A DNA stretch of 64,000 nucleotides. It comes from Pseudomonadota bacterium. GTDB lineage: Bacteria > Pseudomonadota > Gammaproteobacteria > GCA-001735895. The translations under genes were made by a program, and so were the position numbers. How positions within the stretch are numbered: the stretch's first letter is position 1; each line of letters starts with the position of its first letter. The stretch lies in contig JADFMY010000003.1 of assembly GCA_022563685.1 (NCBI GenBank), forward strand, positions 1 through 64,000, written 5' to 3'. Shown here one piece after another: positions 44,763 to 61,910 of this stretch. The notes under the pieces were generated by a model. It had not been told where the DNA came from. It saw only the letters and a program-made list of their open reading frames with translations, and searched no databases.

Positions 44763-45554
44763 TTACTGGTAGGTAAACATCAAATTGGCCAATAGCGCCG
44801 GATCCAGGCTTCCAGCCCGACGAACCACATACTGATTGGCACCCTGTTTTCGCGCCACGAGTTCCAGCGCATTCCTGATTCTGGGTTCGAGTCCAGATTT
44901 GGTACGGATGGTAATATCGAGTGTATATTTTCCATCGGCTTGCAAAGAAGCTTTTCCTGCCATATCCAATACGGCGTCCTTATCGTCGATGACAAATTCA
45001 TACCTTCCCCCGGCTTTGCCAACCGATACCTCGTAATCGCCCAGATTGATATCTTCACCCGCCAGCCCCGCATCTTTCCACACCAGGGTTCCGTTCAGAT
45101 CGGCCAGTTTATCCTGAACTATCAATACGCTGTCGAGGTTAAGCTGCAGCCTGCCGGCCGGTTGCATTAATACCCCCGGCATCCTGGTCAGGTCCTGTAG
45201 AGGGTATTCAATCTTGACTTGAGTCAGCTCTGTGCTGCCGGCAAGTGGTTCGTGCCTGACCTGTAGCGAACCATAAGGATTCAAAACCTGGTAACACACC
45301 CCCAGGGTAAGTAAACAGGAAAGATCGGCTTCGTATTCCAGGTCTCGTAACAAAAACTGATTTATTTCGATGCCGCCAATACGCCCGGATATCAGGCTAC
45401 CCTGTGGCTGGAATATTCTGATATTGTCAGGCATTCTGACGACGCCGAGCAAATGGGCCAGGGGCATATTGATCAATAGCGCCGCCAACAGGACGAGCAC
45501 GAAAAATAGCGCCGGTTTCCATAGCTTTCTCATGCGCTTAGGTTCCTGTGACAA
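44763..45554 (-). CDS. gspN: Type II secretion system protein N
   Basis: A 263-residue inner-membrane anchored protein with a helix at about 12-30 (PALFFVLVLLAALLINMPLAHLLG) and a beta-rich periplasmic part (LQPAGRLQLNLDSVLI; GTLVWKDAGL), typical of GspN. The role of GspN in T2SS is accessory and not present in all systems. It is the last gene of the gsp operon and overlaps gspM by 17 bp. It converges with the YkgJ gene. Confidence 0.85.
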   Translation of the reverse strand: MSQEPKRMRKLWKPALFFVLVLLAALLINMPLAHLLGVVRMPDNIRIFQPQGSLISGRIGGIEINQFLLRDLEYEADLSCLLTLGVCYQVLNPYGSLQVRHEPLAGSTELTQVKIEYPLQDLTRMPGVLMQPAGRLQLNLDSVLIVQDKLADLNGTLVWKDAGLAGEDINLGDYEVSVGKAGGRYEFVIDDKDAVLDMAGKASLQADGKYTLDITIRTKSGLEPRIRNALELVARKQGANQYVVRRAGSLDPALLANLMFTYQ

Positions 45555-46014
45555 GTACCAGGCTGCAATCGACTTCAGCCGGATTAGTGGCGACGCTGAT
45601 CCTGAGATCCTTAACCGTGAGTCCTTTGTCGTTCACCCTGGCGATGAATTCGATTAAGCGGTTAAAACTAATCGCCGAATAGCGAATCCGTATTTCATCG
45701 TTGCTGATAGGGGTTATTTGCGCCAGATAGGGTTTTAACTCCAGTTCCCGTACTTCACTATCTATCAAATTAGCCAGCGAACCACTAAAAACAGGTTTTG
45801 CCGCCGATAGTCTCTTGGCAGGTAATTGACTAACGACGCTTTCCATCCAGCTGAGGTCGGCTCTACCCTGTTCCAGATCATTCTGCAAAGTTGACAACCG
45901 TTGCGTGTAAGGCTCCACCAATAATGCATGCACGGCTACGCCGAGCAAGGCAATCAGCGCAAACCCGAATACCATTTTCTCTCGCGCACTGTAACTGGAA
46001 AGTCGCTCCATCAT
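45538..46014 (-). CDS. gspM: Type II secretion system protein M
   Basis: A 158-residue bitopic protein: short cytoplasmic N-terminus, one helix (about 14-34, MVFGFALIALLGVAVHALLVEP) and a periplasmic ferredoxin-like domain. GspM pairs with GspL to form the inner-membrane platform. ATG overlaps the gspL stop by 4 bp (ATGA). Confidence 0.85.
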   Translation of the reverse strand: MMERLSSYSAREKMVFGFALIALLGVAVHALLVEPYTQRLSTLQNDLEQGRADLSWMESVVSQLPAKRLSAAKPVFSGSLANLIDSEVRELELKPYLAQITPISNDEIRIRYSAISFNRLIEFIARVNDKGLTVKDLRISVATNPAEVDCSLVLVTGT

Positions 46015-47213
46015 ACTGATTTCCCCGTTAGTACAAACCGGCCTGAGGTAGCCTCCGGTTTGATATCCAGATTTTCCAGCTCCACTGCCTGCCCCGCAGT
46101 TTCTATAGCCTGATATAACGCTTCTATTTCACTCAACCGGCCAGTCTTGACATCGATACTCAAACGATCTTTTTGATAGCCGATTTTATTGACTGCAATA
46201 GTGGGGTATTCGACCTTTGCCTGGGTGAATGCACTCAGTAGCCCTAGAAAATCGATATCCTGCCGGCTCGATTGATTTTGCCTTAATACCGTAATCAGCA
46301 CCTTTTTCAGGTTCGCTGACGCGTTTACATTGGAAGGCAGATAGCGCTTGATCAACTCGTACTGAGTCGCCTTGATGCGCGCCAGCTCGGTTTCCATTTC
46401 ATGCAGCGCCAGAGCCTTATTGTAGCCTGCCACCACGAGCATAAGAGCCAGCAGTGCGATGATCCAGCGCCAGATTTTGAAGAGCCCGAGCCAGACCGAT
46501 GAAACCTGAAACCGGCGTTGTTGTAAATCGATCGATACCGCTCTATCGATCTTCAACTGATTTAAATCCAGCACCCTGTGTTCCGACGGATACCTGGTAA
46601 CCTGTACATTTTCGTACCGATCCCTGTTTCGCAGGTAATAAACAATACGCCTGATTTCCTGCTCTTGTGTAATCTGGTTCAACATTGATTCGAGCATCTC
46701 CACACGGCATTTGAGTCCCTTATAATCGCCATATCGAATGATGAGACCATCGTGGCTCTCGATCACGCTCACTTCACCCGCCTGACCCGACCAGGGGCAT
46801 AGAAACAGCTCCGGTACGATTCTGGAAAGGCTTAAGCCGTGGGTTTTCTGTAATTCCAGAGCGCGTTCCATAATGGTTGCTTCGACCACTGCAACAGCGA
46901 CCGGATTGCTGGACTGATCGCCAAGCGCGACGTGCTGTCGCTCAACATCCTGGGCTAACTGATCTTCAATTTGATACTCGATAGACGAGAGCACCTGGCG
47001 TGAAGCCTTGGCTGGAATCTCGAACTGAGTTAAATACACGCATTGCTGGGGAATAATAAATACCACCGAACCCTGATTCTGGCTCAGGGCGCCCAACTCC
47101 TGTGCAGAACCAACACGCCAGCTGGCTGTTTTATCGCTAGCCTGAGCACCCTCGATAATCCAGCTAAAGTGATCTAGCGAGGCGTCGTGAAAGCGAACCA
47201 GTAGGGTCGGCAT
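46011..47213 (-). CDS. gspL: Type II secretion system protein L
   Basis: A 400-residue platform protein. The cytoplasmic actin-like part (about 1-240) contains the PQQCVYLTQFEIPAKASRQVLSSIEYQIEDQLAQDVERQH segment typical of GspL; a single helix follows (about 250-272, LFKIWRWIIALLALMLVVAGYNKA) and a periplasmic domain ends the protein. GspL binds the ATPase GspE. The stop of gspK overlaps the start as TGATG. Confidence 0.9.
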   Translation of the reverse strand: MPTLLVRFHDASLDHFSWIIEGAQASDKTASWRVGSAQELGALSQNQGSVVFIIPQQCVYLTQFEIPAKASRQVLSSIEYQIEDQLAQDVERQHVALGDQSSNPVAVAVVEATIMERALELQKTHGLSLSRIVPELFLCPWSGQAGEVSVIESHDGLIIRYGDYKGLKCRVEMLESMLNQITQEQEIRRIVYYLRNRDRYENVQVTRYPSEHRVLDLNQLKIDRAVSIDLQQRRFQVSSVWLGLFKIWRWIIALLALMLVVAGYNKALALHEMETELARIKATQYELIKRYLPSNVNASANLKKVLITVLRQNQSSRQDIDFLGLLSAFTQAKVEYPTIAVNKIGYQKDRLSIDVKTGRLSEIEALYQAIETAGQAVELENLDIKPEATSGRFVLTGKSV

Positions 47214-48103
47214 CAGCTTTGCCCCAGCGTTCGACTGAGAATCACCGTTTTGCCTGCGGAATCACGGTGTATCAAGGTATTGAAAAGAAGCGACTGATCC
47301 CCCAAGGTTACCTGACCATGGGCTGAAAAATAATCGGTACTGACCGACAACCCTGCCTCTTCCAGCGGTATCTGCAGCCGCTCGGTCATTTGTTGCAGGT
47401 CGGAAAATTCTTCTTCTTCCCTTGCCTCGATAAAAGCATCGGCATCGAGATTATCACCCAGTGATAGAAATATGGTTTCGGACATCGTATTCACATTCAT
47501 ACTGGTCGCGCCGGGCAGGACTGTAATATGGGGTTTCAGCAGTTGATAGATTTCCGGCGTCACATTTTTCACCAGCAATAGCTCACTAATATCGACCATT
47601 TCTCGATTTGCCACCCGATAGGTTTGGTAATTTTCCTCCGCACCATCGGGATACCGCACTTCAAAATCTTCATCCAGCCAGTCTAACAGAGCCGGCACAA
47701 AGGTAGTATCGACATTAAGATTATTGCATAAACGATTGAATCTGTTTAAAGATTCTTCCGAACCCAGTAAATTATTGAGATTAAATTTACCCTGTTCATC
47801 TTCCAGATAGCCGGATAAAAACCCACCCTCGATCGGTAGCCCGGGTATTCCTGTCGCCCAGTCTTCACCCAGATGATCGATACTGGACTCCTTACGATCT
47901 TTCGCCAGGAATAATCGCGCCCAGTCTTCGAGGCCCAGCGCGTAGAGCCGCGCTTTATCCATGAGCTGAATTCGTGATGTTTTCCGGATCGAAAAAGCTT
48001 CCTGGTGAGTGATCGAAACGATGATCGCACTGGCAACTAATACCACCAGTATTGCCGATAGCAAGGCTATACCCGACTGTCCTGTCGATTTATAGCACGC
48101 CAT
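47213..48103 (-). CDS. gspK: Type II secretion minor pseudopilin K
   Basis: The large minor pseudopilin that tips the pseudopilus. I start it at ATG 48103, because GGAG is nine bases upstream and the leader then reads MACYKSTGQSG-IALLSAIL, a prepilin-peptidase site without Glu5 as is normal for GspK; an upstream start would overlap gspJ by 53 bp. The 296-residue product has the GspK globular insert (EDEQGKFNLNNLL, VPALLDWLDEDFE, TMSETIFLSL). Confidence 0.92.
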   Translation of the reverse strand: MACYKSTGQSGIALLSAILVVLVASAIIVSITHQEAFSIRKTSRIQLMDKARLYALGLEDWARLFLAKDRKESSIDHLGEDWATGIPGLPIEGGFLSGYLEDEQGKFNLNNLLGSEESLNRFNRLCNNLNVDTTFVPALLDWLDEDFEVRYPDGAEENYQTYRVANREMVDISELLLVKNVTPEIYQLLKPHITVLPGATSMNVNTMSETIFLSLGDNLDADAFIEAREEEEFSDLQQMTERLQIPLEEAGLSVSTDYFSAHGQVTLGDQSLLFNTLIHRDSAGKTVILSRTLGQS

Positions 48104-48692
48104 CGGGAAACTCCAGAATGCGCCTGATTTCACCGAAATCATCCAGATTGAGTATCATTATCAGCGCAATGGGTTCGCCCAGACCCCGTGTTACTTCATC
48201 CGGCCAAGTGCTAATTGGCCGTTCCTCTGCATCGATAAACTGAATTTCGAACGACTCGACAGCGGATAATATCACCGTGCTCAAAGGTTCTTCGCCTATA
48301 CCCTGATCCAGCGAGCGCCAATGCCGCCTGAGCAGTTTCTTACCGACCAGTTGATACTGGACGCGTTGTAACTCACTGCGTTTATGTTGTAGTAAGTTAC
48401 CCCATCCACTGCGGGTGAAACTGATGCTATTGTCGGCCAGCACAACCTGGTTTTCAGTATCGCCATACTGGTTACGGATTTTGCGCGGCGACACCTGCAT
48501 CCAGTCCCGGTTAAAATAGGTCAGCGCAAATTGCAGTTCTGACAGGCGACGACCGGCTTCGCTCACCTGGTTGCCAATTTTTACCGTCTGGTTCAGACTG
48601 CTATAGGCGATACCGGCCATCACCGCGAAAATTGCAACCGCTACGAGCATTTCAAGCAGCGTGAAACCCTGATTACGATAGTGACGCATCAT
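48090..48692 (-). CDS. gspJ: Type II secretion minor pseudopilin J
   Basis: A 200-residue pseudopilin with leader MMRHYRNQG-FTLLEMLVAVAIFAVMAG, including Glu5, and the GspJ-like DWMQVSPRKIRNQYG...LADNSISFTRSGWGN core. It forms the I-J-K tip complex. It overlaps gspI by 4 bp and gspK by 14 bp. Confidence 0.93.
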   Translation of the reverse strand: MMRHYRNQGFTLLEMLVAVAIFAVMAGIAYSSLNQTVKIGNQVSEAGRRLSELQFALTYFNRDWMQVSPRKIRNQYGDTENQVVLADNSISFTRSGWGNLLQHKRSELQRVQYQLVGKKLLRRHWRSLDQGIGEEPLSTVILSAVESFEIQFIDAEERPISTWPDEVTRGLGEPIALIMILNLDDFGEIRRILEFPDGVL

Positions 48693-49060
48693 AACTTTGC
48701 GATAAACCCCGTCTCGCTTGCCGATATTTCATCACTATCCCCGAGGTATACGTCTACATCGATGCGGCGCATTAGAGGTTCATCAGTTTTACTGATTTTC
48801 ATTTTCCATCGCCACTGCACGCCCGCCATATCGACCACGCCACTTTTATTCGACACGTTCGACCAGGTTTTTTTCGCGCGATAAAGCGCCAGCCGATTTT
48901 GCGCCACCCAGCTTGCGATCGTCTTTTCTTTTAAATGGCTGGAGCGCAGGGCTGAGTTTGCACCGCTTTCAATAACGGCGCCCATGGTGATCGCGATGAA
49001 TATTAGTGCGAACATCACTTCTAACAGGGTAAACCCCTTAGGAAGATTTCGGTCCATCAT
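48689..49060 (-). CDS. gspI: Type II secretion minor pseudopilin I
   Basis: A 123-residue pseudopilin with leader MMDRNLPKG-FTLLEVMFALIFIAI and the GspI block VAQNRLALYRA. It is the first component of the tip complex. Its start overlaps the gspH stop by one base (TGATG), and its end overlaps gspJ. Confidence 0.92.
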   Translation of the reverse strand: MMDRNLPKGFTLLEVMFALIFIAITMGAVIESGANSALRSSHLKEKTIASWVAQNRLALYRAKKTWSNVSNKSGVVDMAGVQWRWKMKISKTDEPLMRRIDVDVYLGDSDEISASETGFIAKL

Positions 49061-49620
49061 CAGGATTGGGGTACGGGCCCAGTCATTAATATATTACCGA
49101 GTAAATCACCCTGGATAGTGATGCTCGCCCTGGCATCACTATCGTCGATACGCCATTCGAATGCTGACATTTCACCGCTCGAGAGGATTAATATATGCGG
49201 AGTCAAGTCGGCCTGATCAACCGCCTTGACGACATAATTTTCGACTATTAGATTTGAATTCTGGGATTCACTCAGTTTTACTTTTCGAAAAAACGACTGG
49301 TCCGCTATCACCCAGTCTTCGCCATCGTATTCGAGCACCTTAAAACCCTGGTGATGCAGGGAAATCGCGTAATTCCGGTTTTCAAATATGGCTTCCTGGT
49401 AAAGCAGGCGAATTAATTTACTGAGGTCTTTTCCGAGTACCTTGAGGTTATTTGAGTCGCTGCCCAGGTTGGTCGAAAGCAGAACAGCGCTGACGGTTAT
49501 GCTTACAATGATGACGACGACGAGTATTTCAAATAGCGTAAATCCGCGTGCGCCAGAGCTCTTACTGGGTCTACGAATCAAGATTCCAGTTACCGATATC
49601 GGCAGCTTTGTCGGAACCAC
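49060..49620 (-). CDS. gspH: Type II secretion minor pseudopilin H
   Basis: The frame gives 186 residues with prepilin site GARG-FTLFEILVVVIIVSI, preceded by an unusually long leader. The ATG at 49620 would overlap gspG by 50 bp; an in-frame TTG 13 codons later (overlapping the gspG stop by 8 bp) would give a more normal leader, so the true start is uncertain. GspH is a minor pseudopilin linking the tip to the GspG shaft. Confidence 0.9.
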   Translation of the reverse strand: MVPTKLPISVTGILIRRPSKSSGARGFTLFEILVVVIIVSITVSAVLLSTNLGSDSNNLKVLGKDLSKLIRLLYQEAIFENRNYAISLHHQGFKVLEYDGEDWVIADQSFFRKVKLSESQNSNLIVENYVVKAVDQADLTPHILILSSGEMSAFEWRIDDSDARASITIQGDLLGNILMTGPVPQS

Positions 49621-50002
49621 CTACCGTCGCGTCAGAACCCAGCGAATACACGTCATACTCACCGTTCACTCCGGGGTACTGGTATAGATACTCATTGCCC
49701 CAGGGGTCCTTGTTCAGCTTCCTGATATAACCACCCTTGCGCCAGTGCTTTAAATCACCAGAGGGCTTATTAACCAGAGAATCCAGGCCCTGTTCGGTGC
49801 TCGGGTAAACGAAGTTATCGAGCTTGTAAAGCTCAAGCGAAGATTCGAGTACGCGAATATCGCTTTTGGCCTTGCTGATGCGTGCATCGTCAACCCGACC
49901 GGTTACCTTGGGTGCGATATAGGCTGCCAGGATCGCGATAATGGTCAGGACGACAATGATTTCAATTAGGGTAAATCCTTTTTGTGGTATGTGTAGTTTC
50001 AT
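49571..50002 (-). CDS. gspG: Type II secretion major pseudopilin G
   Basis: A 143-residue protein with leader MKLHIPQKG-FTLIEIIVVLTIIAILAA and the calcium-site C-terminal region DPWGNEYLYQYPGVNGEYDVYSLGSD. It polymerises into the pseudopilus shaft after cleavage by the prepilin peptidase. It is preceded by the rhombosortase gene, 53 bp upstream. Confidence 0.96.
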   Translation of the reverse strand: MKLHIPQKGFTLIEIIVVLTIIAILAAYIAPKVTGRVDDARISKAKSDIRVLESSLELYKLDNFVYPSTEQGLDSLVNKPSGDLKHWRKGGYIRKLNKDPWGNEYLYQYPGVNGEYDVYSLGSDATVGGSDKAADIGNWNLDS

Positions 50003-50055: not shown

Positions 50056-50646
50056 TTATATCTTGTCTTTATAGAGTATTGTATAAACTCGCTCACCGAG
50101 TGCAATCGATAATGCCAGCAACGCACCGTAAAGATGGGCATCGATCACCACCAATGTGCCGATAAATTTGCTACTAGTCACATTAAAACCGCCGACCTGC
50201 TCCAATACAATTTTAGTGCTTATAGCTATTCCAAGTAACACTGCAATCAATTTGTCTCGTTGATACAGGTCGATCGCGGCGAGCATAAATATTCCATACA
50301 AAACACCTGAATAGCCAGCATACCACTGTAGTTCGGGACTGAGCAGGGTAAATAAAATGGAAATACCCAATACCAGTAGAAAATGATAAATAATCCAGCG
50401 CCTGATCGACCAGCCCGGTGAAGTAATCCCCATGCACAGTAACAGACCTAAAGCATTGAGCAGCAGGTGTGGCGTGTTGACGTGAACCCAGTGCGCCGAG
50501 AAGATCCGCCAGTACTCACCCTGCGATACCCAGTCTTGCTGATAGCGCAGGGTCTGAAAATCAGCCAGTTGCAGCAATCCCATTACCATCAGCACGACCG
50601 CGATAAATATCCACCCCGGGCCTGTCTTATTACTGGAGCAAATCAT
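50056..50646 (-). CDS. Rhombosortase-type rhomboid intramembrane protease
   Basis: A 196-residue six-helix rhomboid. The catalytic pair is Ser113 (WYAGYSGVLYGIF) and His171 (VIDAHLYGALLA); the N-terminal motif SAHWVHVNTPHLLLN (His/Asn region, residues 51-64) is the one that marks rhombosortases, the rhomboids predicted to process proteins with GlyGly-CTERM tails. Such substrates are exported by T2SS. The start codon overlaps the gspF stop by 17 bp, and gspG follows in 53 bp, so it is translated as part of the gsp operon. No GlyGly-CTERM protein is encoded in the window. Confidence 0.85.
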   Translation of the reverse strand: MICSSNKTGPGWIFIAVVLMVMGLLQLADFQTLRYQQDWVSQGEYWRIFSAHWVHVNTPHLLLNALGLLLCMGITSPGWSIRRWIIYHFLLVLGISILFTLLSPELQWYAGYSGVLYGIFMLAAIDLYQRDKLIAVLLGIAISTKIVLEQVGGFNVTSSKFIGTLVVIDAHLYGALLALSIALGERVYTILYKDKI

Positions 50647-51841
50647 TCATGTCAAAAATAGGCAAAAGAATGGCGAGTACAATGAGCATGACGACTCCAC
50701 CCATGACCAGTATCATAGCGGGTTCAAACAGGCCTACAAATAGCGCTGTGACGCCGGCAATTTCGCTTTCCTCGGCTTTGGCAGAGCGTTCCAGCATATC
50801 ACCCAGCTTTCCACTCGATTCGCCATTTTCGATCAATTGCAGCACCAACGGACTGAAATAGCCCGATTGATCGAGTGCAGCTGAAATATGTTCCCCTTCC
50901 CTGACCCGGTCGGTGGCCTTAACCACCGCGTTTTTTATCGGCTGGCTCAGTATCACTTCGGTCGATATACGCATCGAGTCTACCGCCGTGACGCCGCTGG
51001 ATACCAGAATACTCATGGTCCGTGTAAAACGTGCGGTATTGGTTAATCGCACCAGATACCTGACCAACGGAAGCCTCAATAGTACCCGGTCGCGTAAAAG
51101 ACTGAACCAGCCAAGCTTCAATAGCCGCTGGTAGAGCACAATCAGCGCAATGATTCCAGCCAGCATATGCAAGCCGTATGCCTTGATAAAATCCGATAAG
51201 GCGATCATCCACTGGGTCAGCACGGGTAATTCCTGGTCAAAACCTTCAAACACCTGGACTATTTGAGGGACTACGAAGGTGAGCAACCCTGCGACCAGGA
51301 AGAGTGCGACAACACTGAGAAGAATCGGGTAAATCAGTGCAAGACTGGTTTTCCGCTGTAAGTCCTGGCGCGCTTCCAGGTAGTCGGCCAGTCTTTCCAT
51401 CACCAGATCGAGCAATCCCGATTGCTCACCTGCATGTACCGACGCGCAATACATTTTATCGAAGATGCGCGGGTATTCTTTTAAGGCTTCGGATAAGGGA
51501 TAGCCTTCCAGGACTTTGGCTCTTACCGCGAGCAATATTTTTTTCGCCTGGTTTTTCTGAGTCTGGCGCGACACCGCGTGATAGGCCGATTCCACCGGCT
51601 GCCCGGCACCGATCAGGGTGGCAATTTGACGGGTAATCAAGGCTACCGTGGCAACATTGATTCTGTCTCGCCGGGACTTTATCTGGCCGTTGAGAACACC
51701 GGTCGACACTTCATCGATCTGCAATGGCATCAGGCTCATTCCGCGTAATTGCTGCCTGGCCTGTTTCGCGGTATCAGCCTCGATTAAACCTTTCTTATTG
51801 TTGCCGTCGGCGTCGATGGCCTGGTATTCGAATGCACCCAT
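50630..51841 (-). CDS. gspF: Type II secretion inner-membrane platform protein F
   Basis: A 403-residue polytopic protein with two repeated T2SF domains, each containing a long cytoplasmic helix bundle and a hydrophobic hairpin: LIGAGQPVESAYHAVSRQ and FDKMYCASVHAGEQSGLL in the first half, LVSSGVTAVDSMRIS and VLQLIENGESSGKLGDML in the second. It forms the platform with GspL and GspM. It follows gspE by 4 bp. Confidence 0.95.
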   Translation of the reverse strand: MGAFEYQAIDADGNNKKGLIEADTAKQARQQLRGMSLMPLQIDEVSTGVLNGQIKSRRDRINVATVALITRQIATLIGAGQPVESAYHAVSRQTQKNQAKKILLAVRAKVLEGYPLSEALKEYPRIFDKMYCASVHAGEQSGLLDLVMERLADYLEARQDLQRKTSLALIYPILLSVVALFLVAGLLTFVVPQIVQVFEGFDQELPVLTQWMIALSDFIKAYGLHMLAGIIALIVLYQRLLKLGWFSLLRDRVLLRLPLVRYLVRLTNTARFTRTMSILVSSGVTAVDSMRISTEVILSQPIKNAVVKATDRVREGEHISAALDQSGYFSPLVLQLIENGESSGKLGDMLERSAKAEESEIAGVTALFVGLFEPAMILVMGGVVMLIVLAILLPIFDMNDLLQ

Positions 51842-51845
51842 AGCG

Positions 51846-53330
51846 CTACTCTGACGCGGGATTATCCCGCGTCACCCGGAGCACTTCGTTCAGTGTTGTC
51901 TCGCCCTGTATGATCTTGCGAATGCCGTCTTCTCTCAATCCAGGACTCCGGGTGCGACAATAGCGCTCTATTTTCAACTGGCTTTTAGTATCGTGGATCA
52001 TCGCCGCAAGCGCTTCATCGATCTCGATCATTTCATAGATTCCAGACCGGCCTTTGTACCCGGACTGCAAACAGCGTGAACACCCCATCGCCTGGTATAT
52101 CGTATCCTGTTCCCCGATACCATAATTGGCCAGTTCTTCCCTGTTTAATCTGATTTCGGTTTTACAGTGCACACAAACACGGCGTACCAGGCGCTGCGAA
52201 ATCACACCCACCAAGGTCGACGACAGAAGAAACGGTTCGACCCCCATATCCTGGAGGCGCGTGATCGCACCCACCGCCGAATTGGTATGCAGGGTCGATA
52301 ATACCAAGTGGCCGGTAAGACTCGCCTGTACGGCGATCTGCGCCGTTTCGCTATCGCGTATTTCACCCACCATCACCACGTCAGGGTCCTGTCGCAGTAT
52401 CGCGCGCAGTCCCTTCGCGAAAGTCATATCCACTTTGGCGTTGACGGGCGTCTGGCCGATACCATCGAGGTCGTATTCAATCGGATCTTCGACCGTGAGG
52501 ATATTACGTTTGGTGTCGTTCAAAGCCGTGAGCATCGCGTAAAGCGTAGTCGTCTTTCCCGAACCGGTCGGCCCGGTAACCAGGATAATACCGTGCGGTT
52601 TCTGGATCATCTGATCAACCCGATGTCGATCCGTGTCGGACATCCCGAGCTGCAATAAATCCAGTCGTCCCGCCTGCTTGTCGAGAATCCTCATCACAAC
52701 GCGTTCCCCGTGACCCGAAGGCAGGGTCGAAACTCGAATATCGACCGGCCGATTGGCCACCTTGAGCGCAATTCGTCCATCCTGCGGCAAGCGTTTTTCG
52801 GCAATATCGAGTTGAGCCATAACCTTGATTCGAGAACACAGCAGGCTGGCAATCTGGCGCGGGGGTTCGAGTACCTCGCGCAATTCGCCGTCTACCCTGA
52901 AGCGAATCGACAACCGGGTTTCAAACGGCTCGATGTGAATATCGGAGGCATTTTCCTTGATTGCTTCGGTAATCAAGGCGTTGATCAGGCGAATAATCGG
53001 CGCATCGTCGTCGCTTTCGAGTAAATCCTCCGGTTCGGCCAGCTCTCGTGCAACCTCGTCGAGATTGAGTTCACCACCAATTTTCTGCGCTTCGTTAAAC
53101 GAAGTTTCGCGATTCTTTTCAAAATGATGGCTCAATAATCGATTGAATTCCTGATCGTTCTCCACCGAGATACTGTCAACCAGCCCTAATAGACGTTGAG
53201 CCTCGGCAATCGCATGGACCGGTGTCTCCTTACGCGTAATCAAACTGAGCTTCCCATCCGATGAAGCCGTCCAGGCGACGACTCCGAATCGTTTGCAAAA
53301 AGAATAAGGTAGTTCGGTTGCTGCTGACAT
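51846..53330 (-). CDS. gspE: Type II secretion ATPase E
   Basis: A 494-residue secretion ATPase. Motifs: Walker A GPTGSGKTTTLYAML, Asp box RNILTVEDPIEYDLDGIGQ, Walker B ILRQDPDVVMVGEIRD, His box TLHTNSAVGAITRL and the tetracysteine zinc domain CVHC...CSRC. It powers pseudopilus assembly. It is the first gene of this gsp operon; gspC and gspD, which often precede gspE, are absent here and must be elsewhere. Confidence 0.97.
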   Translation of the reverse strand: MSAATELPYSFCKRFGVVAWTASSDGKLSLITRKETPVHAIAEAQRLLGLVDSISVENDQEFNRLLSHHFEKNRETSFNEAQKIGGELNLDEVARELAEPEDLLESDDDAPIIRLINALITEAIKENASDIHIEPFETRLSIRFRVDGELREVLEPPRQIASLLCSRIKVMAQLDIAEKRLPQDGRIALKVANRPVDIRVSTLPSGHGERVVMRILDKQAGRLDLLQLGMSDTDRHRVDQMIQKPHGIILVTGPTGSGKTTTLYAMLTALNDTKRNILTVEDPIEYDLDGIGQTPVNAKVDMTFAKGLRAILRQDPDVVMVGEIRDSETAQIAVQASLTGHLVLSTLHTNSAVGAITRLQDMGVEPFLLSSTLVGVISQRLVRRVCVHCKTEIRLNREELANYGIGEQDTIYQAMGCSRCLQSGYKGRSGIYEMIEIDEALAAMIHDTKSQLKIERYCRTRSPGLREDGIRKIIQGETTLNEVLRVTRDNPASE

Positions 53331-53603: not shown

Positions 53604-54233
53604 TCAGGCGGGTTTGCTCGATCGCTCAGAGGATCTGGATTCGAACCATTTATTAATATTGACCCGCTGGAGTAATAAGATTCCGGCTATCACCGCATAG
53701 ATTCCGGGCTCAAGGTAATCAGCCTTGACTAGCCACAGAAAATGCAACACACCGAGCAGGACAATCAGGTAAGTCAGTCGATGCAATTTCTTCCAGCCCT
53801 TGCCCAGCCGTCTGACCATCGCCTGATTGGAAGTAGCTGCTAACGGGATTAGCAGCACGAAAGCACTAAACCCCAGGGTGATATAAGGGCGTTTGATAAT
53901 GTCTTCCAGCATCTCGGAAAAATCGAACGAGTGATCGGCGACGAACCATATCAGGAAGTGACAAAAAGCATAAAAGAATACATAGAGCCCCAACATGCGC
54001 CTGAAACGCAGCAATAGGGTCCATCCAAACCACTGTCTCAAGGGCGAAATGGCAAGCGTGATTAACAATAAACGCAGGGTCCAGTCGCCGATATCTCGGG
54101 TAATCGTTTCAATCGGATTGGCGCCCAGATCTCCATAGAAAATTCGCCATACCAGGCTCGAAATCGGAACCAGACACAGAATAAACAGTACTGGCCTGGC
54201 AAATCTCGACCTAAGCACTTGTGACGATTCCAT
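53604..54233 (-). CDS. msrQ: Haem-containing membrane subunit MsrQ
   Basis: A 209-residue protein with five to six membrane helices of the ferric-reductase-like (YedZ) family. Haem-ligand histidines are visible in YAFCHFLIW, in KLHRLTYLIVLLGVLHFLWLVKADY. MsrQ passes electrons from flavin/quinone to MsrP in the periplasm. The start lies 12 bp after the msrP stop. Confidence 0.93.
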   Translation of the reverse strand: MESSQVLRSRFARPVLFILCLVPISSLVWRIFYGDLGANPIETITRDIGDWTLRLLLITLAISPLRQWFGWTLLLRFRRMLGLYVFFYAFCHFLIWFVADHSFDFSEMLEDIIKRPYITLGFSAFVLLIPLAATSNQAMVRRLGKGWKKLHRLTYLIVLLGVLHFLWLVKADYLEPGIYAVIAGILLLQRVNINKWFESRSSERSSKPA

Positions 54234-54245
54234 ATTTAGGTGCCC

Positions 54246-55187
54246 TTAATAATTCGCTCTCAAATCCATGTCATTGTACAGGTGCGCCACTTCCTCTCCA
54301 TAGCCATTGAACATCAGGGTTTTACGCTTGAATATATCACCTATGCGGCGTTCCTTTTTTTGCGACCAGCGCGGGTGATCGACGGCCGGGTTAACATTGG
54401 AGTAAAACCCATACTCGCGCGGATTCGATATATTCCAGGTCGTTTCCGGTTGTTGCTCGACAAAGTCGATGCTGACAATCGACTTGATACTCTTGAATCC
54501 ATATTTCCAGGGTATCACGAGCCGAACAGGCGCACCGTTCTGATTTGGCATGGTTTTGCCATACATACCAACTGCGAGCAGGGTGAGTGGATTCGTGGCT
54601 TCGTCTAGGCGCAGCCCTTCCCGGTATGGCCAGCGTAACACACTGCGATTTTGCCCAGGCATGCGCAGTGGATCGTGCAGGGTTTTGAAGGCCACATATT
54701 TTGCCTTCGATGTCGGTTGCAACGATTTGATAATAGACTCCAGCGGCACACCCAGCCAGGGAATAACCATCGACCAGGCCTCGACACAGCGCAGACGGTA
54801 AACTCTTTCTTCGATCTCAAAGGGCCTGACCAGGTCTTCCAGCGAATATTCACCCGGTTTTTCGCATTCACCACCCACGGTAATCTTCCAGTCGTCGGTG
54901 TTAAAATCCTTTGCGTATCTGGCTGGATCGGTTTTGCCGGTACCAAACTCGTAAAAATTATTGTAACGGGTGACATCGTCTTCCGGCGTCATCTCTTCAT
55001 CGAGGGTTATCACGTTTTTCCGATAGTCGCCGATACGCAGTGAAGCGCCAGCCGTCAACCACGGATTGAGCAGCAAAGTGGTACCGATCATACTTGACGC
55101 CTTCATGAATTCACGGCGCTTATGATAAATCGACTCAGGCGTAATATCCGATGCTGGAATATCCGACGCTTTTCTTATTTTAATCAC
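54246..55187 (-). CDS. msrP: Protein-methionine-sulfoxide reductase catalytic subunit MsrP
   Basis: A 313-residue periplasmic molybdoenzyme. The Tat signal contains KRREFMKASS; molybdenum is bound by the Cys of YRLRCVEAWSMV; GAPVRLVIPWKYGFKSIKSI is the standard cofactor-domain segment. It repairs oxidised methionine in periplasmic proteins using electrons from MsrQ. The start is GTG with AGGT about five bases upstream. It is the first gene of msrPQ. Confidence 0.95.
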   Translation of the reverse strand: MIKIRKASDIPASDITPESIYHKRREFMKASSMIGTTLLLNPWLTAGASLRIGDYRKNVITLDEEMTPEDDVTRYNNFYEFGTGKTDPARYAKDFNTDDWKITVGGECEKPGEYSLEDLVRPFEIEERVYRLRCVEAWSMVIPWLGVPLESIIKSLQPTSKAKYVAFKTLHDPLRMPGQNRSVLRWPYREGLRLDEATNPLTLLAVGMYGKTMPNQNGAPVRLVIPWKYGFKSIKSIVSIDFVEQQPETTWNISNPREYGFYSNVNPAVDHPRWSQKKERRIGDIFKRKTLMFNGYGEEVAHLYNDMDLRANY

Positions 55188-57164: not shown

Positions 57165-59288
57165 GTGAGAAAAGCATTCATCCAGTCGTTTCTCACCATT
57201 ATGATTATCATAATGGTCGTGCTCAGCGTGCAGCTAGGACAGGAAATTTACAAATGGTCGTCGTTGAAGCGACTGGAGGCTTCGATACCGCTAGCCGAGT
57301 TAGAGCAAAGTATGGCATTGTCCGATGTTATATTCAGCTTAAACCAACTGAATCGTGCGCTGGACCAGGTCTATATCGATGCGAGCGATTCTAACAATCA
57401 GGCGCTGCAAATAGCACTCGACGTCGCATTTTCGACGATGACCGAACACGATCTTGTGTCGGGACCAGGATTCGATACGGACTTATATGCCGCGCGCGAG
57501 GAACTGCGGCAAATTATCGATAAGTTGTCTGCTCAGCTGATTTCCGAAGAGGGTTTAGATGCGCATGAGTTATCGTTGCTGATTGCAAGGTATAACGAGG
57601 CGATGGCGCCATACACTCAAAGCTATTTTGAAAAAAACGAGGGCGTTCGGACTCGTTTGGCGCAACTAACCAACAAAATCTCTCAAATGAGCGATGTGGC
57701 GTTATTAACGTCCGTGTTACTGGTGGTATTGATGTTGTTCATCACATTGATCTGGTGGTTACGTCAACGCACCTCGATACAGTTAAAGCAAGTCAAGCAG
57801 GAGAAGCTCAAATCAGAGACTATCCTTCGCGCTGCACTCGATCATGCACCGGCGGGAATTTATATTAAAGATTTGGAGGGGCGCTACCTTCTGTGCAATC
57901 GTACGTTTTGCGAATGGCACAAAATTCAGTTGGAACAGCTACTTGGCAAAACCGCCCACGATCTCTTTTCACCAGAGAAAGCGAGGCTGTTTTCTGAAAA
58001 GGACGAAGAATGTCGTGAAACCAGGACGGTAATTGAGCACGAATCTGAAATTGATTTCCCGGGCGATACCTTAAAATCGGAGTATACGATCAGGTTTCCC
58101 ATCTTGGGCGACGATGGAGAACTGCTGGGGACTGGCGGTATCGATGTTGACATAACGCAAAGAAAACAGGCTGAAATCGAACTGGAGGAAAGCCACAACC
58201 GGTTCATGGCGCTCGCCGATAACCTGCCCGAGTTCATTACCCTGAAAGATAAGAGCGGCGTATTCCTGTTTGTTAATAAGCGATTCGAAGAGTGGACAAA
58301 TATGAAGCGTGAAGACACGGTGGGAAAATTAGTTCACGATATTTATCCCGAGGAGCAGGCCACCGAATTTCAAATACTCGATCGTAAAGTGATACGCAGT
58401 GGAAAGATTCTTAGCCGTGAAGTAGATCTCAGTTACCCGGACGGGAACACCCGTAGCGTAATCAGCACCCGTTTTCCAGTGCTCTCGACCACAGGCGAAG
58501 TACTTGGCCTGGGTACGATTAATCACGACATCACCGAGCGTAAACAACATGAAGAAGAATTAAGAATCGCCAAGGAGAAAGCGGAGGTGGCAGATCGACT
58601 AAAATCGACTTTTCTCGCAACCATGTCACACGAATTGCGAACCCCGTTAAATTCTATCATCGGCTTTACCGGCGTCCTTTTGCAAGGTTTGACCGGGGAA
58701 TTAAATGACGAACAATTGAAGCAGTTGGGTATGGTAAAGATGAGTGCAAGGCATTTACTGGCACTGATCAACGATATACTGGACCTGTCTAAAATCGAGG
58801 CTGGATCGCTGGAGGCTGAGTCATTGCCATTTGATCTACAGGCTGCGGTGGACAACTCTATAGCAGTGGTTACACCGGCCGCCGAAAGTAAATCTTTAGC
58901 TGTGGTTTCGAGAATGACTGGCGAGATTGGCGTTATTTACAGTGACCGTCGCCGGGTTGAACAAATAATACTCAACCTTTTGAGTAATGCGATAAAATTT
59001 TCCGAGCAGGGTGAAGTAATAGTCGAGTGCCGCAAGGGTGATGGGAATATACTGATCGAAGTCTCGGACCAGGGGATAGGAATAAAGGAAGCTGATCTAC
59101 AGCACCTGTTTAAACCATTTAGCCAACTGGATCAAAGAATTGCCGCGAGACAATACCAGGGAACCGGACTTGGGCTGGCGCTCAGTCGAAAACTGGCGCG
59201 TATTCTGGGTGGCGATTTAGAGGTTAAAAGTGACTGGGGTAAAGGAAGTGTGTTTACATTGAGCCTGCCAGCTATATTATCAGGATGA
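57165..59288 (+). CDS. Membrane histidine kinase with two PAS domains
   Basis: A 707-residue kinase starting at GTG (no ATG is near, and spacing to the previous stop is 2 bp). Helix 1 is about 8-26, a ~155-residue periplasmic region follows, helix 2 is at about 175-198, then PAS1 (about 220-335; LEGRYLLCNRTFCEWH), PAS2 (about 345-460; KSGVFLFVNKRFEEWT), HisKA (FLATMSHELRTPLNSIIGF) and HATPase (NLLSNAIKF, DQGIGI, GTGLGLALSRKLARILGG). There is no receiver domain; the next gene supplies it. The periplasmic region could receive the binding protein encoded just upstream. Confidence 0.93.
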   Translation: MRKAFIQSFLTIMIIIMVVLSVQLGQEIYKWSSLKRLEASIPLAELEQSMALSDVIFSLNQLNRALDQVYIDASDSNNQALQIALDVAFSTMTEHDLVSGPGFDTDLYAAREELRQIIDKLSAQLISEEGLDAHELSLLIARYNEAMAPYTQSYFEKNEGVRTRLAQLTNKISQMSDVALLTSVLLVVLMLFITLIWWLRQRTSIQLKQVKQEKLKSETILRAALDHAPAGIYIKDLEGRYLLCNRTFCEWHKIQLEQLLGKTAHDLFSPEKARLFSEKDEECRETRTVIEHESEIDFPGDTLKSEYTIRFPILGDDGELLGTGGIDVDITQRKQAEIELEESHNRFMALADNLPEFITLKDKSGVFLFVNKRFEEWTNMKREDTVGKLVHDIYPEEQATEFQILDRKVIRSGKILSREVDLSYPDGNTRSVISTRFPVLSTTGEVLGLGTINHDITERKQHEEELRIAKEKAEVADRLKSTFLATMSHELRTPLNSIIGFTGVLLQGLTGELNDEQLKQLGMVKMSARHLLALINDILDLSKIEAGSLEAESLPFDLQAAVDNSIAVVTPAAESKSLAVVSRMTGEIGVIYSDRRRVEQIILNLLSNAIKFSEQGEVIVECRKGDGNILIEVSDQGIGIKEADLQHLFKPFSQLDQRIAARQYQGTGLGLALSRKLARILGGDLEVKSDWGKGSVFTLSLPAILSG

Positions 59289-59680
59289 AATCGGTGGTAA
59301 GCAATAAAATTCTGATTATTGAGGATAACGAACAAAACCTCTACCTGGAGACTTATTTACTCGAAAATAGTGGTTACCAGGTGATAGCGGCGAGAGACGG
59401 GCCGGAAGCGATACAGCTGGCTGAGAGGGTTAATGCGGATATTATTTTGCTGGACATTCAGTTACCCGGGATGGATGGATTCGCAGTATTAAAAGCGATA
59501 AAAAAAATACCTCGCATTGCCGATGTACCTGTAATTGCTGTTACCTCCCACGCGATGACTGGCGACAGGGAACGAATCCTTGCAGCCGGATGTGTCGACT
59601 ACATCGAAAAACCCATCGACCCGGAAATCTTTGTTGCGCAAATCGAAAAGTATTTGCCCACACGGACAGACCATGAATAG
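59285..59680 (+). CDS. Single-domain response regulator
   Basis: A 131-residue CheY/DivK-type receiver: ILIIEDNEQN (acidic pair), phospho-Asp in IILLDIQLPGMDG, Thr in VIAVTSHA and Lys in YIEKPIDPE. It has no output domain. Start overlaps the kinase stop by 4 bp (ATGA) and its end overlaps the next gene by 8 bp, so all three are translationally coupled. Confidence 0.93.
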   Translation: MKSVVSNKILIIEDNEQNLYLETYLLENSGYQVIAARDGPEAIQLAERVNADIILLDIQLPGMDGFAVLKAIKKIPRIADVPVIAVTSHAMTGDRERILAAGCVDYIEKPIDPEIFVAQIEKYLPTRTDHE

Positions 59681-61910
59681 CCGAAGAAAGATTCGTGTAC
59701 TCGTAGTGGACGATGACGAGCAAAATCGATATCTGCTACAGTTGTTGTTAAAGAACCGTAGTTACGCGGTAGAGGTCGCGCGCGATGGCAGCGAAGCCTT
59801 GAAGCTGGCCCGCGCCAGGGTGCCGGATTTAGTCATCAGCGATATCCTCATGCCAGTGATGGACGGGTTTAAACTATGCCAGGAATGGCGTGCAGATCCT
59901 GATCTAAAAAAGCAACCATTTATTTTCTATACAGCTACCTATACTGATCCAAAAGACGAAAAATTTGCCCTAAACCTGGGCGCTAACCGATTTATTGTCA
60001 AACCCAAGGATCCCGAAGAACTCATAGCTCTTATTGTTGAAGTGCTGGAACAGCAAGAGCGTGGGGAGTTAAGCAGCGGTTCAACGACGACCACTCAGAA
60101 ACGCGTCTTATTGAAGGAGTATAACGCGGCCCTGGTGCGCAAGCTCGAAGACAAAATGCTGCAACTAAAGAAGACCCGTAGCCAACTCGAAAACAAGATT
60201 GGGGAGCTGGAATCTAGCGGACTTATTCTCGAGGAAAACAAACGCCGGTTTCGTGATTTTGCCGAGATAGCAGCCGACTGGTTTTTCGAAACCAGTAGCG
60301 ATTTAAAAATACGCACTGTGTCGCAAAGATATGAGACCGTTACCGGTTTTACCGACAAGGATATAGTCGGCAAACCACTCATTGAATACCTCAGTGCGAG
60401 TAGTGCAAGTTCTCTACCGCAACCAGTCATTAGTCAACTCGAGCAAAATTTGCCGACAGACGAGTTCGAATGTGCACAAAAAACAAAAAATGGTAAGGAA
60501 TTGATATTGAGATATCGTGGCAAACCTTTCTTTGACGGCGAGGATCGCTTAATTGGCTACCGATTTGTCGCTCGGGACATTACCGCCTCTTATTTATTAT
60601 CTAAAAAAATATCTCACCAGGCTGCCCACGATGCACTCACGGGATTGGTAAACCGTTGGGAATTTGATCGTCGATTGCATAGATTACTCACTGGATTAGA
60701 TTCTAACTCCGAGCATGTGCTTTGCTATCTCGATGTCGATCAATTCAAGATTGTCAATGATATTAGTGGCCATATCGTTGGAGACGGGGTTCTCAAACAA
60801 CTGGCAAACGTGCTAGCAAAATGCGTTCGCGAAAGGGATACCCTGGCGCGACTCGGGGGAGACGAGTTTGCAATTTTAATGGAGCATTGCACGCTAGAAC
60901 AGGCAACTCGGGTAGCTGAAAAAGCACGTGACGCCATTAGAAATTATCTTTTCCAATTCGATAAAAGAAAATTTGACATAACCGTGAGCATAGGTGTAGT
61001 TGATATATCTCAATTAGGCAGCAACTATTCCGATGTGCTCAGTGCCGCCGATGCCGCCTGTTATGCAGCCAAGGAACGCGGTGGTGATAGTGTTTACATT
61101 TATCAGCACGACGATGCAGATATCGAACGCCGCCATGGTGACATGAAATGGACTAATAGAATAAACCACGCGCTGAACAACGATCGATTTATACTTTATG
61201 CGCAAACTATCGTCCCCGTCATAGAGTCCGAGAGGGAGGACAAACGATACGAAATATTGATTCGCATGATCGACCAGGAAGGTGAACTGGTGCTACCCGG
61301 ACATTTTTTACCCGCAGCCGAAAAGTATAATTTGATGCAGAAAATAGACCGCTGGGTCATTGAAACGCTGTTTAGCTGGTTAGCGCACGATTCAGAGCAG
61401 CCTGGACGGAAACCGATATTTTCAATTAATTTATCCGGAAATTCACTCGGTAATAACGAATTATTATCGTATTTGCTCGATCAATTTTCTCACCGTATCG
61501 ATCCTCGACAAATTTGTTTTGAGATAACAGAAACGTTAGCCGTAGAAAATTATTTTCAGGCGAATGATTTTATTGCCAGGTTAAGAAAACTGGGTTGCCA
61601 GTTTGCCATTGACGATTTCGGTAGTGGTGTCTGTTCGTTTGCCTATTTGATCGAGCTCGAATTTGACTACGTCAAGATTGATGGAATATTTATACGGGAT
61701 ATCTGTGAGAATCCGATTAAAAAGGCGGTGGTAAAGTCAATCAATGAAATAGGTCACGTAATGGGTAAAAAAACCGTTGCCGAGTATGTCGAAAGTGACC
61801 CAATTCGGCAAGTCATCGAGGAAATTGGCGTTGATTATGCGCAAGGTTACGCTATTGGATGCCCGCAGCCTTTAAGCGAAATTTCCAGCTCCAATCTAGG
61901 GAACCTCTGA
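59673..61910 (+). CDS. Receiver-PAS-GGDEF-EAL cyclic-di-GMP enzyme
   Basis: From the ATG at 59673 (chosen because it overlaps the preceding stop by 8 bp and opens directly with the receiver) the protein has 745 residues: receiver (about 8-125, Asp in LVISDILMP), coiled coil (about 150-200), PAS (about 205-320), GGDEF (RLGGDEFAIL, with I-site RERD five residues before) and EAL. In the EAL domain the first motif is EILIR instead of EALLR, but ITETLAVENY, IDDFGSGVCSF, YVKIDG and AQGYAIG are present, so both activities are plausible. The last residues (GNL) and the TGA are encoded by a mobile repeat that starts at 61900. Confidence 0.92.
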   Translation: MNSRRKIRVLVVDDDEQNRYLLQLLLKNRSYAVEVARDGSEALKLARARVPDLVISDILMPVMDGFKLCQEWRADPDLKKQPFIFYTATYTDPKDEKFALNLGANRFIVKPKDPEELIALIVEVLEQQERGELSSGSTTTTQKRVLLKEYNAALVRKLEDKMLQLKKTRSQLENKIGELESSGLILEENKRRFRDFAEIAADWFFETSSDLKIRTVSQRYETVTGFTDKDIVGKPLIEYLSASSASSLPQPVISQLEQNLPTDEFECAQKTKNGKELILRYRGKPFFDGEDRLIGYRFVARDITASYLLSKKISHQAAHDALTGLVNRWEFDRRLHRLLTGLDSNSEHVLCYLDVDQFKIVNDISGHIVGDGVLKQLANVLAKCVRERDTLARLGGDEFAILMEHCTLEQATRVAEKARDAIRNYLFQFDKRKFDITVSIGVVDISQLGSNYSDVLSAADAACYAAKERGGDSVYIYQHDDADIERRHGDMKWTNRINHALNNDRFILYAQTIVPVIESEREDKRYEILIRMIDQEGELVLPGHFLPAAEKYNLMQKIDRWVIETLFSWLAHDSEQPGRKPIFSINLSGNSLGNNELLSYLLDQFSHRIDPRQICFEITETLAVENYFQANDFIARLRKLGCQFAIDDFGSGVCSFAYLIELEFDYVKIDGIFIRDICENPIKKAVVKSINEIGHVMGKKTVAEYVESDPIRQVIEEIGVDYAQGYAIGCPQPLSEISSSNLGNL

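Follow-up and report, generated by a model that had tools for sequence, protein, structure and literature searches.

According to PMC6219818 and PMC11389362, the Vibrio cholerae rhombosortase RssP cleaves the GlyGly-CTERM tail of VesB at the inner membrane prior to export by the type II secretion system (T2SS). The new C-terminus of VesB bears glycerophosphoethanolamine, and the T2SS carries the protein to the cell surface. Haft and Varghese 2011 (PMC3237569) describe a rhombosortase signature in which a His lies four residues past the catalytic Ser (SGxLH) in 'virtually all' members. They also report that T2SS genes co-occur with GlyGly-CTERM, and that no T2SS subclass was found marked by rhombosortase.

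The window (the whole stretch of 64,000 nucleotides that was analysed) carries a gene whose product resembles RssP and SO_2504 of Shewanella oneidensis in its match to TIGR03902, its Ser-His dyad, its six transmembrane helices and short N-terminus, its WRxxS/T loop motif (WRIFS in the window protein) and its expected tie to T2SS cargo. It differs from both in that the gene lies inside a T2SS operon, between gspF and gspG, in that Tyr117 replaces the signature His, and in that no canonical GlyGly-CTERM protein was found in the window genome. In the dedicated rhombosortase/single-target pairs of Haft and Varghese 2011, a gene neighbour likewise marks a dedicated function, but the neighbours of the window gene are secretion machinery genes rather than a cargo gene. 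Within the open-access literature searched, no report was found of a rhombosortase within or beside a T2SS operon or gspG. The window gene is a real rhombosortase, new, as far as the searched literature goes, in both its arrangement and its active site.

Identity of the gene and its operon

In profile searches the protein scored 134.8 bits against the TIGR03902 rhombosortase equivalog model (cut-off 84) and 49.8 bits against PF01694. The sequence-only reading had seen a six-helix rhomboid with Ser113, His171 and HWVHVNTPHLLLN, and the open reading frame, dyad, motif and helices are all there. The AlphaFold model has a mean pLDDT of 92.7 and six long helices, and the dyad, Ser113 in TM4 and His171 in TM6, is invariant. 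Foldseek gave GlpG as the best solved fold, with a TM of about 0.6 and weak sequence matches. The gene has a dN/dS of about 0.16-0.26 when compared with the nearest relative and is thus under purifying selection, with a constraint looser than that on gspF. A CvpA-like protein on contig C60 of the same genome also matched TIGR03902, and was rejected as a false match on inspection of its sequence.

The operon runs gspE-F-rhombosortase-G-H-I-J-K-L-M-N without interruption on the minus strand (Table 1). The coordinates agree with the overlap with gspF, and with gspG as the next gene, that had been read initially; the gap to gspG is 53 bp. The overlap has the same length in three relatives (L015, L020 and L023; from coordinates). 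The gspF-gspG interval showed no terminator-like site on its minus strand, which is consistent with co-transcription but no proof of it, and from the gene layout we infer that gspF, the rhombosortase gene and gspG are co-transcribed.

Table 1. Positions in the window of the rhombosortase gene, its key codons and the T2SS genes around it
Feature	Position	Strand	Basis
gspE	51846..53330	-	TIGR02533 679.8 bits
gspF	50630..51841	-	TIGR02120 458.8 bits
gspF 3' end / rhombosortase 5' end overlap, 17 bp	50630..50646	-	coordinates
rhombosortase (rrtA / rssP-like), 196 aa, ATG start	50056..50646	-	TIGR03902, PF01694, tree, AlphaFold model
catalytic Ser113 codon (GYSG)	50308..50310	-	invariant in 48 aligned sequences
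Tyr117 codon, site of rhombosortase signature His (SGxLH)	50296..50298	-	sequence comparison, tree
catalytic His171 codon (DAHLYG)	50134..50136	-	invariant in 48 aligned sequences
gspG, major pseudopilin	49571..50002	-	TIGR01710 167 bits
gspH	49060..49620	-	TIGR01708 74.4 bits, just below cut-off 80; position
gspI	48689..49060	-	position and prepilin N-terminus
gspJ	48090..48692	-	position and prepilin N-terminus
gspK	47213..48142	-	NF037980 244.6 bits
gspL	46011..47213	-	TIGR01709 167.3 bits
gspM	45538..46014	-	position; model match weak
gspN	44763..45554	-	PF01203 84.9 bits

Directly upstream of gspE, genes for MsrQ and MsrP (protein-methionine-sulfoxide reductase) occupy window positions 53604-55187(-). 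A sensor kinase, a response regulator and a GGDEF/EAL-like protein, judged from sequence, are encoded in a row at 57165-61910(+).

Placement in the family and the signature His

The arrangement was followed in 36 genomes of the GTDB family f1, the window genome included, using thresholds of E 1e-80 for gspF and E 1e-8 for rhombosortase. The order gspF-rhombosortase-gspG, whose conservation in relatives had been proposed as a check, is kept in 17/17 genomes with an intact gspF. Eighteen of the 36 genomes, whose assemblies are fragmented, gave a match to neither gene, and in G027 gspF is cut at a contig end, which leaves the neighbouring gene out of view. The joint presence and absence of gspF and rhombosortase gives a Fisher p of about 2e-10, a value that ignores shared ancestry and treats genomes as independent when they are not. 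Among named assemblies the arrangement occurs at 17 loci, for example in the Olavius algarvensis Gamma 3 endosymbiont, several of these loci being from genomes that were already sampled. Judged from gene order and sequence, the best explanation is that the rhombosortase would be a fixed accessory of the type II secretion system of this lineage. The embedded arrangement amounts to a T2SS subclass marked by rhombosortase, the kind that PMC3237569 did not find. In the Olavius endosymbiont locus (L070:5535-7002), gspH and gspI are separated by a gap of ∼1.5 kb with opposite-strand open reading frames.

A tree of 137 rows (quick search, midpoint root) separated rhombosortases from GlpG-type rhomboids with an SH-aLRT of 97. 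Within the rhombosortases, the embedded genes all fall into a single clade of 33 rows, identical copies included (SH-aLRT 97). A grouping with GlpG-type housekeeping proteases, which would have spoken against the initial assignment, was therefore not what the tree gave, and the assignment as a rhombosortase is borne out by both the tree and the TIGR03902 score. That a GlpG-type housekeeping rhomboid landed in the operon by chance is hardly credible. Escherichia coli GlpG does share the rhomboid fold and the Ser-His dyad, and Tyr117 sits at the GlpG-like stacking position, that of Tyr205 in GlpG, but in the tree the window protein is not placed with the GlpG-type proteins; it has no cytoplasmic N-terminal domain and is T2SS-linked. 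In addition, contig C19 of the same genome encodes another rhomboid, one that is not part of the rhombosortase set, and chance would not readily account for a placement kept in every f1 genome with an intact gspF or for the repeated T2SS neighbourhoods.

At the signature position, where the His is a typical trait of rhombosortases rather than a strict requirement, the window protein reads SGVLY. The sequence-only reading had overlooked this Tyr. Tyr or Phe occupies this position in all 33 embedded rows, while the His is kept in 94 of the 97 other rhombosortase rows (four with SGxLHT counted in), the exceptions being L142 with Tyr, L025 with Glu and the divergent L026. In G049 (L008) the rhombosortase gene likewise occupies the gspF-gspG interval, but in the opposite orientation, and retains the His; thus, position between these genes does not alone dictate the residue. 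Because GlpG has Tyr at this site, the replacement is predicted, by analogy, to preserve catalysis, and it may shift substrate preference. The natural change from His to Tyr or Phe is a ready-made test of the role of this residue in specificity.

Candidate cargo

The window genome was searched for tails by profile and pattern searches and in targeted stretches. The search for GlyGly-CTERM proteins that the sequence-only reading had suggested came back empty, with none above the TIGR03501 cut-off (15.5 bits) in this 92%-complete metagenome-assembled genome (MAG). The best match, at 14.0 bits, was set aside because it is sub-threshold and corresponds to a helix in the interior of a FimV-like protein. 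The nearest relative encodes a VWA protein bearing a GlyGly-like tail, to which this genome gave no match. A clade-specific tail profile, run with no positive control, gave no match in the genome even at E 10, a silence that carries no information. A degenerate DNA tail pattern gave 107 matches versus 78 for a reversed control, and none of 29 translated places of its matches held a convincing tail.

Over the relatives, TIGR03501 found C-terminal tails, some below the cut-off, in 10 of the 16 other gene-carrying genomes. Such a tail was also present in 3 of 18 f1 genomes without rhombosortase (G002, G017 and G030). Two of the f1 tail proteins are members of 'choice-of-anchor' families, and one such family, choice-of-anchor H (NF038116), is represented in 15 of the 17 rhombosortase-carrying f1 genomes, among them the window genome with one copy (G000:C31:4630-5436). 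That copy ends in the variant tail GGVGSFSMVWLLLIFQVVIAVRG, without a compact terminal Arg cluster; it is matched by NF038116 only, with no C-terminal match to TIGR03501 above 15.5 bits. The choice-of-anchor H tails of genera g2 and g3 are mostly classic (AGSFSPAWLLALGLLAGLRRK and the like), and in genus g1, to which the window genome belongs, the Gly-Ser core is mostly retained and the helix has a variant sequence that is itself conserved (LLLFFLIIQVVIAARG). From these sequence features, the choice-of-anchor H protein is the best candidate for a cargo of the window rhombosortase.

Choice-of-anchor H also occurs in 13 of the 19 f1 genomes without a detected rhombosortase gene. The C-terminal region is visible in 12 of these, one being G027 with gspF off the contig, and the tails look alike. 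The 11 relatives with neither gspF nor rhombosortase detected keep the variant tail, which rules out the expectation that the tail tracks the protease. The tail may be a relic that outlived the loss of the T2SS and its protease, it may be processed by a different protease, or it may be a plain anchor. At loci L249-L260, choice-of-anchor H proteins carry the tail GAGS..QVVIAARG in f1 genomes that gave no match to gspF or rhombosortase.

These tails bear on the possibility that the embedded enzyme is a rhombosortase-derived protease of shifted specificity, acting on tails of a new kind (GAGS-F..LLLFFLIIQVVIAARG) or on very few substrates rather than on canonical GlyGly-CTERM cargo. The change of the specificity-associated His to Tyr/Phe, seen in 33/33 embedded sequences and in just 1/97 others, fits this idea, as do the drift of the g1 choice-of-anchor H tail from the classic form of its sister genera and the lack of a canonical tail among the searches of the window genome. 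Nevertheless, we regard it as unlikely, since the Tyr/Phe enzyme coexists with classic tails in G031-G035, G016 and G018, and the drifted tail persists in the 11 genomes lacking a detectable gspF or enzyme.

Type II secretion across the class and proposed function

A wider sample of the class comprised 204 genomes, 75 with and 129 without rhombosortase. gspG was present in 72 of the former and 65 of the latter. The statement in the initial reading that rhombosortases are usually encoded at separate loci is right only in part: 28 of the 75 class rhombosortase genes lie ≤3 kb from gspG. Twenty-six of these 28 are divergent from gspG and two, both from f1, are on the same strand. The embedded genes, together with the widespread gspG-adjacent genes of the class, tie the protease genetically to the secretion machine. 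At L115:3869-8167 (SKOF01000065.1, a Thioalkalivibrio MAG), the cluster consists of gspF, a small open reading frame, a subtilase, an opposite-strand rhombosortase and gspG. The S8 subtilase carries an MprA-type GlyGly-CTERM (TIGR03867 20.8 bits, cut-off 19.7), and its position beside the rhombosortase is like that in the dedicated rhombosortase/single-target pairs.

The position between gspF and gspG and the strict joint presence with gspF might also be expected if the protease acted not on cargo but on the secretion machine, by cutting or quality-controlling one of its subunits (GspF, for instance, or a pseudopilin). This is very improbable, as the protein retains the rhombosortase sequence family, a GlyGly-CTERM protease is encoded in the same cluster at L115, and about half of the gspG-bearing class genomes have no rhombosortase, so that the T2SS is not generally dependent on one.

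The rhombosortase is, in our view, probably a fixed T2SS accessory that cuts the C-terminal tails of exported proteins for surface delivery. The protease would be located in the inner membrane. Its substrates would be exported proteins with a transmembrane tail at the C-terminus that starts with a Gly/Ala-Gly-Ser motif; once cut within this tail, they would be taken over by the T2SS and delivered to the cell surface. By analogy with V. cholerae VesB, a lipid-type modification and surface retention may follow, and it is by the same analogy that the window rhombosortase is expected to cleave GlyGly-CTERM-like tails. The stoichiometric coupling of sorting and secretion put forward in the sequence-only reading is a conjecture. 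Canonical rhombosortase function is our best guess for the embedded gene because of the TIGR03902 score well over the cut-off, the tree, the 17/17 placement, the co-occurrence with gspG in the class, the pairing of a GlyGly-CTERM subtilase with a rhombosortase between gspF and gspG at L115, the classic GlyGly-CTERM tails of sister-genus relatives with the embedded gene, and the published mechanism of RssP. This reading is weakened by the lack of any protein passing TIGR03501 in the window genome, by the tail not tracking the protease and by the replaced signature His. A more specific proposal, that the embedded genes are a T2SS-dedicated, co-inherited and monophyletic rhombosortase subfamily whose altered active site (His to Tyr/Phe) co-evolved with a non-canonical cargo tail, is tentative and on balance doubtful; if true, cleavage and export would form one genetic module.

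In L087, L091, L101, L106 and L131, a rhombosortase gene divergent from gspG lies directly upstream of an apparent fabD-fabG-fabF cluster (identified by eye), a neighbourhood that possibly links rhombosortase to lipid supply.
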